Positions 49,554 through 61,447 of a DNA stretch of 64,000 nt are shown piece after piece. The DNA lies in NCBI RefSeq assembly GCF_026410505.1, contig NZ_JAPMIU010000015.1, forward strand, positions 1 to 64,000, read 5' to 3'. The stretch comes from Frateuria hangzhouensis. GTDB lineage: Bacteria; Pseudomonadota; Gammaproteobacteria; Xanthomonadales; Rhodanobacteraceae. The position numbers and the translations under genes were made by a program. Position 1 is the stretch's first letter. Each line of letters begins with the position of its first letter. The notes beneath the pieces were generated by a model that saw only the letters and a program-made list of their open reading frames with translations, had not been told where the DNA came from and ran no database searches.

Positions 49554-51956
<2,403 letters not shown>

Positions 51957-51965
51957 ACAGCAAGA

Positions 51966-52088
51966 GCCTCCCCCTCTCCCCAACCCTCTCCCCCGGCGGT
52001 GCCGGGGGAGAGGGAGTCACAAGCTCACCGCGTCCTGCTCCCTCTCCCCCCGCGCAGCGGAGGGAGAGGGTTGGGGAGAGGGGGAGGC
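51966..52088. repeat. Family D palindromic element, upstream copy (R1)
   Basis: A 123-base element with perfect 27-bp terminal inverted repeats (51966-51992 and 52062-52088), composed of CTCTCCCCAACCCTCTCCC and its complement. Each arm carries its own GC hairpin; the left is CCCCCGGC-GGT-GCCGGGGG. It starts 9 bases after the ligA stop and ends 23 bases before the DUF559 ATG. Confidence 0.93.
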
Positions 52089-52111
52089 CTTTCGGCCAAG
52101 GAGAAGAAGCG

Positions 52112-53506
52112 ATGGATCGCACAAAACAACTACGGAAGAACCAGACCGACGCCGAAGCGAAACTGTGGTCACGTCTGCGCGCCGCCCAGCTAGGCGCCAA
52201 GTTCCGCCGCCAGCATCCGGTGGCCGGCTATTACGCCGACTTCTGCTGTGTCGAGCACCACCTGATCGTGGAACTCGATGGCGGCCAGCACGGCGAGCAG
52301 CAAGCCTATGACATCCGTCGAACCCACGCGCTTGAAAGGGCAGGCTTCAACGTGCTGCGCTTCTGGAATGACAACGTGCTGCTGCACACCGACGACGTGC
52401 TGGAAGTGATCGTCCGCGCCCTGGACGAAAGGCCTCCCCCTCTCCCCAACCCTCTCCCCCGGCGTCGCCGGGGGAGAGGGAGCCAGGCAAGCGCGCCGCG
52501 CCCTTTAAGCTCCCTCTCCCCCGGCACTGCCGGGGGAGAGGGTTGGGGAGAGGGGGAGGCCTTTGCTTCTGCGCTCAGGTTGCGCGCCGGCCTTTACCAC
52601 CTGATCCGCCACTTCTTCGCCAACCGCCACCTGCTTGAGGTCGAAACCCCCATCCTGTCCGCCGCCGGCAACACCGACCCCAACATCGAAAGCTTCACAG
52701 CCACGTTCAGCGGCCACGTCGACGCCGGTGCCCGCGAGCGCTGGATGCGCACCTCGCCGGAGTACCCGTTGAAACGCCTGCTCGCCGCCGGCGTGGGCGA
52801 CTGCTACGAGCTGGGCCGGGTGTTCCGCAACGGCGAGGCGGGCGGGCGACACAATCCCGAGTTCACCATGCTCGAGTGGTACCGGGTCGGTTGGGATCAC
52901 CATCGCCTTGCGCAGGAGGTGGTCGAACTGGTGCAGGCGGCGCTCGCCCTCGTCGATCGCCGGGCGGACGTGCGGGTGTGCAGTTACCGGGAGCTGTTCC
53001 GGGACACGCTGGGGCTGGACCCGCTCGCGGTACCGCTGGAAGCGCTGCAGCACGCCATGGCAAGCGCCAACGTCAACCCGGAAGGACTGACTCGCGACGA
53101 TTGGCTCGATCTGCTGATCACCCACCGTCTGCAGCCGCACTTTCCGCGCGACCGCATCACCGTGATCCACGACTACCCGGCCAGCCAGTGCGCGCTGGCC
53201 CGGATCCGCCAGGACGATCCGCCGGCCGCCGAACGCTTCGAGCTCTACCTCGGCGCCTACGAGCTGGCCAACGGTTATCACGAACTCAATGACGCCGCCG
53301 AGCAGCGCAGGCGCTTCGAGCGCGACAACGCCGTGCGCCGGGCCCGCGGCCTGCGCGAGATGCCCATCGACGAACGGCTGCTCGAGGTGCTCGACGAACT
53401 GCCGGACTGCGCCGGTGTTGCTCTTGGGGTGGAACGCCTGCTGATGTGCCTGGCCGGCACCGATGCGATCGGCGACGTGCTGGCGTTTCCCTTTGCCGAA
53501 GCCTGA
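52112..53506 (+). CDS. epmA: Chimeric reading frame: DUF559 endonuclease-like domain joined to EpmA
   Basis: One uninterrupted 464-codon frame. Residues 1-107 form a DUF559 (Vsr-like, PD-(D/E)xK) domain, MDRTKQLRKNQTDAEAKLWS... with the likely metal site Asp43, Glu54, Asp56 in YADFCCVEHHLIVELDGG. Residues about 106-151 are encoded by palindromic element R2 and are low-complexity (PPPLPNPLPRRRRGRG). Residues 152-464 are EpmA, the class II synthetase-like enzyme that puts (R)-beta-lysine on EF-P, with YELGRVFRNGEAGGRHNPEF (motif 2) and GVALGVERLL (motif 3). The usual EpmA N-terminus (W-x-P-S-A-S) is absent; the match begins at SALRLRAG. ATG 52112 has AAGGAG 8 bases upstream. EpmA may instead start at TTG 52580, with a poor ribosome site. 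Confidence 0.87.
   Translation: MDRTKQLRKNQTDAEAKLWSRLRAAQLGAKFRRQHPVAGYYADFCCVEHHLIVELDGGQHGEQQAYDIRRTHALERAGFNVLRFWNDNVLLHTDDVLEVIVRALDERPPPLPNPLPRRRRGRGSQASAPRPLSSLSPGTAGGEGWGEGEAFASALRLRAGLYHLIRHFFANRHLLEVETPILSAAGNTDPNIESFTATFSGHVDAGARERWMRTSPEYPLKRLLAAGVGDCYELGRVFRNGEAGGRHNPEFTMLEWYRVGWDHHRLAQEVVELVQAALALVDRRADVRVCSYRELFRDTLGLDPLAVPLEALQHAMASANVNPEGLTRDDWLDLLITHRLQPHFPRDRITVIHDYPASQCALARIRQDDPPAAERFELYLGAYELANGYHELNDAAEQRRRFERDNAVRRARGLREMPIDERLLEVLDELPDCAGVALGVERLLMCLAGTDAIGDVLAFPFAEA
52428..52564. repeat. Family D palindromic element, downstream copy (R2)
   Basis: A 137-base element with perfect 36-bp terminal inverted repeats (52428-52463 and 52529-52564), bounded by AAAGGCCT and AGGCCTTT. 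It matches R1 in arm sequence and internal hairpin layout but has a different centre. It lies inside the DUF559-EpmA frame and is translated without stop codons. Confidence 0.95.
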
Positions 53507-53754: not shown

Positions 53755-55056
53755 ATGAACGCATCGACGCTTTCCATGGACGCCGACCGCCGGCTGGGCC
53801 GCTCGGACGCGCGCACGCTGGCATTGGCGGCCCTGGGCGGGGCGCTGGAGTTCTACGACTTCGTGGTGTTCGTGTTCTTCGCGATCCCGCTCAGCCAATT
53901 GTTCTTCCCGCACGACAGCGTGCCCTGGCTGGCACAGGTGAAGGTCTTCGGCATCTTCGCCGCCGGCTACCTGGCGCGGCCGCTGGGCGGCATCGTGATG
54001 GCGCACTACGGCGACAAGCTCGGGCGCAAGCGCATGTTCACGCTGAGCGTATTCCTGATGGCCGTGCCGACGCTGGGCATCGGCCTGCTGCCGGTCTACG
54101 CGCAGGTCGGCATGTGGGCGCCGCTGCTGCTGTTGCTGCTGCGCGTGGTGCAGGGCATCGCGGTCGGCGGCGAGGTGCCGGGGGCGTGGGTGTTCGTGGC
54201 CGAGCACGTACCGCCGCGGCGGGTGGGTTTTGCCTGCGCCAGCCTGACCTCCGGACTCACCGTGGGCATCCTGCTCGGTTCGCTGGTGGCCGCCGAGGTC
54301 AACCGCTCGCTGTCGCCCGAGGCCCTGCTCGACTACGGCTGGCGGCTGCCGTTCCTGGTCGGCGGCGTGTTCGGCTTCCTGGCCGTGTGGTTGCGTCGCT
54401 GGCTCAGCGAGACGCCGGTATTCGAGGCGATGCATGCGCGGCGCGAGCTGGTGGCCGGGATGCCGCTGGCGCAGGTGGCGGCGCGGCACCGGCCGGCGGT
54501 GGTGCTGTCCATGCTGGTGACCTGGATGCTGACCGCGGCGATCGTGGTGCTGATCCTGATGACGCCCTCGCTGGTGCAATCGGTGTTTCATATCGCGCCG
54601 GCACGGGCGTTCCTGGGCAACAACGTGGCCTCGTTCGCGCTGGCGGTGGGCTGCCTGTTCTACGGCGGCCTGTCCGACCGGATCGGGCCGGCACGGGCGC
54701 TGCTGCTCGGCGCCGCAGGATTGCTGCTGAGCGGGTACGCCCTGTACCTGGACCTGGCCGGCGGCGGCGCGCATTTCATCGCGTTGTACGCGCTGGCCGG
54801 CCTCGCCGTGGGCGTGGTCGGCGTGGTGCCGGTGCTGATGGTCCAGGCGTTTCCGCCGGCGGTGCGGTTCTCCGGGCTGTCGGCTTCGTACAACGTGGCC
54901 TACGCGTTGTTCGGCGGCCTGACGCCGCCGCTGATCGCACTGCTGGTGAAGCGCTTTGGCGTGCTGGCGCCGGCGCATTACGTCGCCGCGACGGCGGTGC
55001 TCGGGATGGCGGTGGCGCTCGTGCTGCTGCGCCGCCAGCCGGCACATGCCGCGTAG
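53755..55056 (+). CDS. MFS transporter, metabolite:proton symporter (MHS/ProP-like) family
   Basis: A 433-residue permease with 12 hydrophobic helices. The MHS signature is clear: GGALEFYDFVVFVFFA in helix 1, AAGYLARPLGGIVMAHYGDKLGRKRMF (partly quoted), RVVQGIAVGGEVPGAWVFVAEHVP, and TPVFEAM after helix 6. Such proteins import osmolytes, dicarboxylates or other organic acids with protons; the substrate cannot be read from sequence. The start ATG at 53755 follows GGCGGAGG. A family A repeat pair follows the stop and probably separates it from the convergent DUF2461 gene. Confidence 0.92.
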   Translation: MNASTLSMDADRRLGRSDARTLALAALGGALEFYDFVVFVFFAIPLSQLFFPHDSVPWLAQVKVFGIFAAGYLARPLGGIVMAHYGDKLGRKRMFTLSVFLMAVPTLGIGLLPVYAQVGMWAPLLLLLLRVVQGIAVGGEVPGAWVFVAEHVPPRRVGFACASLTSGLTVGILLGSLVAAEVNRSLSPEALLDYGWRLPFLVGGVFGFLAVWLRRWLSETPVFEAMHARRELVAGMPLAQVAARHRPAVVLSMLVTWMLTAAIVVLILMTPSLVQSVFHIAPARAFLGNNVASFALAVGCLFYGGLSDRIGPARALLLGAAGLLLSGYALYLDLAGGGAHFIALYALAGLAVGVVGVVPVLMVQAFPPAVRFSGLSASYNVAYALFGGLTPPLIALLVKRFGVLAPAHYVAATAVLGMAVALVLLRRQPAHAA

Positions 55057-55109
55057 GGTGGGCTTCAGCCCACCGCACCAACGGCCGGTGGGCTGAAGCC
55101 CACCCTACG
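55053..55109. repeat. Repeat family A head-to-head pair
   Basis: Two complete copies, TAGGGTGGGCTTCAGCCCACC and GGTGGGCTGAAGCCCACCCT, face each other about 12 bases apart between convergent genes. The first overlaps the stop codon of the MFS gene. This is the best-preserved example of the family and shows the flanking TAGGGT/ACCCTA that marks element ends. Confidence 0.88.
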
Positions 55110-61406: not shown

Positions 61407-61447
61407 TCCCTCGCCCCTCCGGGGAGAGGGTTGGGGTGAGGGGCCGG
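61407..61447. repeat. Solo family D repeat arm
   Basis: CCCTCGCCCCTCCGGGGAGA and the following GGGTTGGGGTGAGGGG resemble one arm plus hairpin of elements R1 and R2 but with ACCCCTC-type substitutions. No partner arm or gene is attached. It sits in the gap after the IPNS-like gene. Confidence 0.7.

Follow-up and report, generated by a model that had tools for sequence, protein, structure and literature searches.

A DUF559 nuclease gene and its flanking boxC-type palindromes as a candidate selfish unit resembling RAYT/REP systems

Why should a small gene for a predicted nuclease lie between two long, matching palindromes, and do the gene and the palindromes belong to one another? The question is raised by a window of 64,000 nucleotides from Frateuria hangzhouensis (the whole stretch of DNA that was analysed), in which a DUF559 gene is bracketed by the palindromic elements R1 and R2, and which a first-pass annotation had read as carrying a candidate mobile or homing unit. 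The reading that we favor, at a probability of roughly 0.6, is that the DUF559 gene and its flanking boxC-type palindromes constitute one selfish, RAYT/REP-like unit, in which the nuclease would act on its own palindromes and host repair would spread them.

The locus begins where ligA ends, at position 51956, and continues with R1, the DUF559 gene, R2 and the conserved part of epmA (Table 1). R1 is composed of two 51-nt arms with 21 nt between them that are 90% complementary, and R2 of two 56-nt arms with 25 nt between them that are 95% complementary; both are doublets, each with two hairpin-plus-arm units, and single-strand DNA folding yields z-scores of -11.6 for R1 and -16.0 for R2. The two elements are real and match one another, as had been claimed, and reading the arms shows that perfect pairing extends over the outermost 27 bp in R1 and over 36 bp in R2. 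The motif CTCNCCCCNNCCCTCTCCC, with two or fewer mismatches, has five matches in the window where 0.13 are expected, with four inside R1 and R2 and one at 61422. Rfam was tried as a source of a family for the palindromes and rejected, as all matches fell below the gathering scores and were mostly to microRNA families that fit long hairpins, which we judged to be chance. At 55052-55109, where an MFS transporter gene ends, lies an inverted repeat of a different palindrome family, perfect over 24 nt and with a loop of 10 nt (CGTAGGGTGGGCTTCAGCCCACCG).

Table 1. Coordinates of features in the window.
Feature	Position	Strand	Basis
R1, boxC-type palindrome doublet (arm-hairpin, 21-nt spacer, hairpin-arm), putative upstream unit end	51966..52088	.	
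Hairpin within R1 left arm (CCCTCTCCCCCGGC / GCCGGGGGAGAGGG)	51984..52014	.	
AAGGAG, likely ribosome-binding site of DUF559, immediately outside R1	52098..52103	+	sequence inspection
DUF559 (PF04480) domain, predicted nuclease of Vsr-like/EDxHD-like fold	52112..52423	+	Pfam 1.6e-39
Open frame DUF559 - R2 linker - EpmA (tRNA-synt_2, PF00152), stop-free	52112..53506	+	
R2, boxC-type palindrome doublet, putative downstream unit end, in-frame linker	52428..52564	.	
Lone dispersed boxC-type motif, elsewhere in the window	61422..61440	-	pattern search

The unit had been placed exactly between the ligA stop and the epmA coding sequence. This holds on the ligA side, where R1 comes next after the gene, and fails on the other, where the DUF559 frame continues into epmA: from the DUF559 ATG (52112) the frame spans 464 residues, crossing R2 into epmA without a stop, and no start codon of epmA's own is obvious. 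Since DUF559 is in frame with epmA, the unit does not lie between two separate genes.

The DUF559 protein is a single domain of 104 residues, directly after which the frame enters R2. Pfam identifies DUF559 and MTES_1575 on this domain and no Y1 domain (PF01797), and in the window unit as a whole it recognizes DUF559 and no known transposase gene. Across an alignment of 35 DUF559 relatives, residues E54, D56 and H60 do not vary. A structure search with the predicted model (pLDDT 87) returned as nearest solved structures 3hrl, and then I-Bth0305I, an EDxHD homing endonuclease (catalytic domain, 3r3p; E 3e-4, TM 0.70/0.74). The first of these, NGO0050 of Neisseria gonorrhoeae, is a close relative of the window protein, 48% identical in the structural match, and its record title is that of a putative endonuclease-like protein, without a function given. 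Vsr (1cw0/1vsr) comes next, at E about 0.02 and beside mitochondrial ribosome chains, and there was no significant match to TnsA. The fold is related to that of the Vsr mismatch endonuclease, but the window protein scores 15.3 bits against the NCBIfam vsr model, below its cut-off of 97.85. Passages of three papers term DUF559 or YcjD proteins Vsr-like, PD-(D/E)XK or EDxHD (PMC12907096, PMC1189080, PMC9403480), and the first ties one of them, Caulobacter VsrA, to mismatch repair, methylation and SOS, with mobility not among the roles given in that passage. Two other contexts were considered and rejected. PADLOC gave two hits, to DpdF (1.6e-4) and Hhe (3e-4), which are too weak for a defence call, and as to phage or plasmid cargo, matches to the window protein are few, in 44 of 72,556 plasmid and 3 of 50,697 phage records.

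The palindromes are not confined to this locus. The motif CTCTCCCCAACCCTCTCCC, allowing at most two mismatches, has 107 copies genome-wide (24 for the reversed pattern), and R1-type doublets occur at further genome sites (L005, L007, L022, L033). All three other DUF559 matches of this genome also adjoin palindromes: at L065 the R1/R2 motif itself lies beside DUF559, at L066 a different pyrimidine-arm hairpin is present on both sides of the gene and there are no copies of the motif, and L004 is a DUF559 fragment that covers profile positions 58-107 and lies within 229 bp whose ends match each other. To judge from its sequence, L004 is a copy of the unit that retains a palindrome at each end and has lost part of its interior, which places it midway from a complete unit to a pair of palindromes without the gene. 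It is the one clear remnant, and inspection by eye of the 19 listed doublets of this genome, G000 (R1 and R2 included), revealed no DUF559 remnants inside gene-less palindrome pairs.

Does this association extend beyond one genome? We assembled a first set of 81 loci, consisting of the window and 80 Pseudomonadota loci, mostly of 20 kb, from a search of 299 Pseudomonadota genomes, of which 112 have a DUF559 match; the 80 were a part of the best-scoring listed places and not a random draw, and two (L065 and L139) were chosen with flanking motifs already seen, such that the choice there was not palindrome-blind. The motif TCACCCCNNCCCTCTCCC, with at most one mismatch, has 40 copies within 400 bp of the domain vs 15 in the other 1.52 Mb, a 45-fold enrichment that involves 18 of the 81 loci, and the reversed pattern is absent from all 81. 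The core CTCTCCC-loop-GGGAGAG is found 100 times near DUF559 and 64 times far from it (26-fold; 44 of the 81 loci), compared with one near and two far for a scrambled core. When no sequence is fixed and hairpins with 7-nt pyrimidine arms are counted, there are 196 near (within 350 bp) and 184 far, a 28.6-fold difference in density; such hairpins lie near DUF559 in 80 of the 81 loci, and on both sides in 44. In L110, the single locus without one, inspection by eye reveals two palindromes, both imperfect.

A second set was made up of the best 80 of 577 confirmed stretches from a bacteria-wide scan, partly in draft or metagenome assemblies, and includes records of Nitrospirales, Dadabacteria, Gastranaerophilales and Stahlbacteria. 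Pyrimidine-arm hairpins are present beside DUF559 in 68 of these 80 loci, on both sides in 51, at a 33-fold density, and no hairpin was found near DUF559 in the other 12, which include both Legionella loci, a Chloroflexi, an Anaerolineales and a Phycisphaeraceae. Purine-first hairpins, counted as a control, are near DUF559 in 6 of 81 and 4 of 80 loci in the first and second sets, respectively. The first-pass annotation had proposed counting DUF559 genes beside such palindromes, and the enrichment is there, at 26- to 45-fold the density in the rest of the loci. Pairing of DUF559 with palindromes is very frequent, and matched inverted ends are present in many loci; the near and far densities of both sets, together with the motif excess in the window, reject chance co-occurrence.

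A further candidate, that such palindromes accompany any small nuclease or mobile gene, received no support. In the 299-genome sample, adjoining hairpins are seen at 0 of 28 Vsr loci and at 0 of 21 Y1_Tnp loci (top-scoring, and IS200-like by look), with 2 of 30 Vsr loci (3 of 30 in a later run) and 9 of 30 Y1_Tnp loci dropped at contig ends; these loci are hairpin-free far from the gene too, such that the controls show no enrichment and have little power. Within the genus g18, hairpins are located at 13 of 14 solo DUF559 genes vs 1 of 7 weak or long-protein DUF559-like matches.

Judged by what they are made of, R1 and R2 are boxC-type palindromes (PIT, or TM triplex-motif elements). They share with boxC/PIT/TM elements the core CCCTCTCCC-loop-GGGAGAGGG, a G/C-rich third arm, the occurrence as inverted pairs and the repetition in the genome; an intrastrand triplex is a further mark of that family, and the form computed for R1 and R2 is that of hairpins. 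In the passages of Holder et al. (2015, PMC4666352) that concern us, boxC/PIT/TM palindromes are G/C-rich, present in E. coli and more than 260 genomes, intergenic in E. coli and tied to genome instability, and their flanking genes have no consensus function; those passages report no mobility gene, and they report promoter and terminator activity as absent from PIT elements. The family described here differs in that it is tied to DUF559, with palindrome sequence varying between DUF559 loci. In E. coli K-12, boxC copy no. 9 of the published list is found some 170 nt beyond the DUF559 gene ycjD on its downstream side, and a second, degenerate hairpin is at the 3' end of the gene; our strict hairpin test found none around ycjD, where the boxC stems are mismatched, and so missed both nearby palindromes. 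The ycjD gene and boxC are situated between fabI and sapF in 3333 of 5426 E. coli genomes (query coverage of 80% or more; L035, L205), and in one other record viewed the slot without ycjD holds an efflux operon, named eefRABCD in other lineages in a passage of PMC12817139. A literature search, with most subscription and all preprint-server papers outside it, found none linking DUF559 to boxC-type palindromes.

The two ends of a locus were also compared with each other. Hairpins flank the gene on either side in 95 loci, and in these the similarity of the upstream end to the reversed downstream end averages 0.579, vs 0.310 for ends of different loci, and a locus's own partner end is the best match of all in 44 of the 95 and in the top 5% in 65. 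Locus L171 represents a minimal unit of one palindrome, the gene and an inverted palindrome, and in the Deinococcus locus L369 the unit ends differ at 2 of 52 bp. Arm orientation is variable, with arms either facing the gene or outermost, and both kinds are present in the window. The DUF559 unit has terminal inverted repeats, as does an insertion sequence or a MITE.

That most hairpins are close to DUF559, on both sides, is also what would be expected if the palindromes served to control a nuclease gene that can do harm, as its operators, attenuators or terminators, and had been copied to other places through processes unrelated to it, and a terminator role is suggested for CCCTCTCCC..GGGAGAGGG repeats of Enterobacter sp. 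638 in a passage of PMC2869309. We consider such control elements very unlikely, as control sites do not need matched inverted copies, the frame in the window runs straight through R2, and the palindromes number up to hundreds of copies alongside one or two strong DUF559 matches per genome; the reported inactivity of PIT elements as promoters or terminators (PMC4666352) points the same way.

Palindrome type and copy number offer two further comparisons with the protein. Across 148 loci, protein and palindrome similarity are correlated (Spearman 0.22, 0/300 permutations), a correlation that taxonomy may cause, and a within-genome triplet test in ten genomes was not significant (0.591, 353/2000). 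Among 16 Rhodanobacter-, Dyella- and Luteimonas-type loci, there are four palindrome types for four protein clades (r=0.48, 5/5000 genus-group-restricted permutations), in a test that was run after the null triplet test, on loci picked from earlier results, with L143 (which has no clade likeness) dropped from 17, and with L212 and L227 (not named Rhodanobacter) and the three loci of the window's genome put in the Rhodanobacter group. Within this one group of genera palindrome type follows DUF559 clade, and the window's genome itself holds three of the four protein clades and palindrome types.

With regard to copy number, a strong DUF559 match is present in 30 of 37 genomes with at least ten motif copies vs 56 of 262 motif-poor genomes (odds ratio 15.8, from a tally by eye). 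Palindrome copies equally abundant in genomes with no DUF559 gene had been named in the first-pass annotation as evidence that would count against it, and they are not equally abundant, with exceptions: six DUF559-free genomes have at least ten motif copies, as does a seventh with a weak match, and the genus g18 has five DUF559-free genomes with 136-271 copies. In a Pseudomonas-like genus the median number of motif copies is about 205 (204.5, n=14) with DUF559 vs 43 (n=11) without it (one-sided p=0.014); the reversed-pattern control is not independent for these counts because the motif is mirror-like.

Comparison of orthologous sites shows how the two are gained and lost. A single intergenic site was compared across 25 genomes of the Pseudomonas-like genus: DUF559 is present in six, each with 2-6 palindrome cores, and the DUF559-free site has palindrome cores in 0 of 19 loci, with the right flank alignable in 16 of the 19. 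DUF559 and its palindromes come and go as a block at this site. Divergence of the gene there is similar to that of its flanks, a pattern suggestive of an old insertion and repeated losses of the block, not of recent jumps. The first-pass annotation had called for a comparison of occupied with empty sites; in it the presence and absence of a block is evident, and inspection by eye of the sites compared turned up neither a target-site duplication nor a sharp boundary or insertion site common to them. The DUF559-empty sites of this genus (L290, L292, L293, L294, L295) often carry another palindrome, GTAGGAGCGAGCTTGCTCGCGA-like, which we take to be a RAYT-type REP, such that two families are found at one intergenic spot.

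The same sites bear on passive hitch-hiking, in which the palindromes are recombination landing pads, travelling DUF559 genes are caught on them by homologous recombination, and the nuclease is inert on the palindromes. Several genomes do keep palindromes without DUF559, and E. coli ycjD occupies a slot that in other lineages holds eefRABCD (according to the passage of PMC12817139 noted above), both of which fit this account; nonetheless, the 19 empty sites lack a palindrome core that could be a pad, each element has ends that match one another, palindrome types track protein clades in one group, and Vsr and Y1_Tnp loci, albeit as low-power controls, have no such hairpins, and we regard it as unlikely.

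A second orthologous site is the ligA-epmA junction, where DUF559 is present in 6 of the best 30 epmA loci of the family. The six occupied junctions have 4-12 half-motifs each upstream of epmA, and a lone half-motif is found in just one of the other 24; in 20 of these 24 DUF559-free junctions the genes are 53 nt or less apart, three are occupied by another small gene, and the gap in the remaining junction is 154 nt. This small gene, in three loci of one genus (L146, L148, L149; 125 codons in L146), is glyoxalase-like by eye. The DUF559-epmA frame is open in five of the six occupied junctions (the window, L147, L150, L162 and L171, not L167). This DUF559-palindrome-EpmA frame is kept despite differing spacer lengths, and the translated palindrome may serve as a linker of the conserved enzyme EpmA. 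A warning for annotation is that certain annotated DUF559 C-termini are translated palindrome.

Could the unit move by homing? The nuclease would then cut palindromes or an unoccupied site, with repair from the gene-bearing copy through palindrome homology, and the unit would enter existing palindromes. I-Bth0305I, an EDxHD homing endonuclease, ranks second among the solved structures (TM-score 0.70), DUF559 is bracketed by copies of a repeat found elsewhere in the genome, and the ligA-epmA junction is occupied in several genera, all of which would suit homing by gene conversion. We nevertheless think it improbable, since no target palindrome is present in the empty Pseudomonas-like sites (core 0/19) or in most empty ligA-epmA junctions. 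The likeness to EDxHD homing endonucleases is one of catalytic fold; those are described in a passage of PMC3943268 as long multi-domain proteins with separate DNA-binding regions, whereas DUF559 is a lone domain of about 104 residues without a long DNA-binding region, is rare in phage and is associated with dispersed palindromes.

In the selfish-unit reading that we prefer, the DUF559 nuclease would recognize its own palindromes, either in duplex form or as hairpins (extruded or single-stranded), and would nick or cut them; host repair or recombination would then copy palindromes to other locations and, on rare occasions, the gene-bearing unit in its entirety. Host processes are invoked because one small nuclease domain is all that was found, with no transposase. 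Internal deletions would leave palindrome pairs, and this would be the origin of boxC-type elements.

RAYT/REP systems consist of a lone nuclease gene flanked by inverted palindromes, with many dispersed gene-less copies and gene-less doublets. The analogy to them drawn in the first-pass annotation agrees with the anatomy seen here, as the DUF559 gene likewise lies between inverted palindromes and gene-less copies and doublets are dispersed. The enzyme is different, being DUF559, of Vsr-like fold, and not an HUH Y1 transposase (PF01797), and top-scoring Y1_Tnp loci lack such hairpins; because the enzyme differs, the DUF559 unit is not a RAYT/REP member. We give about even odds to the broader proposal of a bacteria-wide selfish system that parallels RAYT/REP without being related to it, in which a lone nuclease of Vsr/EDxHD fold acts on palindromic ends, host repair seeds up to hundreds of gene-less palindromes of clade-specific types, and the missing source of boxC/PIT/TM elements is supplied. 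If it is true, arrangements of the REP/RAYT kind have evolved two times or more, around enzymes that are not related. The boxC-type palindromes, for which we have seen no enzyme or origin named before, acquire a candidate enzyme, and E. coli K-12 offers a place to test where they come from; DUF559, which is widespread but little understood in function, gains a likely biological context.

Finally, two groups of plasmid-borne DUF559 genes have distinctive neighborhoods. On three Deinococcus plasmids (L368, L369, L375) DUF559 is found among hpa genes in antisense orientation, with the gene junction differing between plasmids, and three cyanobacterial plasmid DUF559 genes (L370, L371, L372) adjoin genes annotated as DUF1156 or PglX methyltransferase and may be defence-related.
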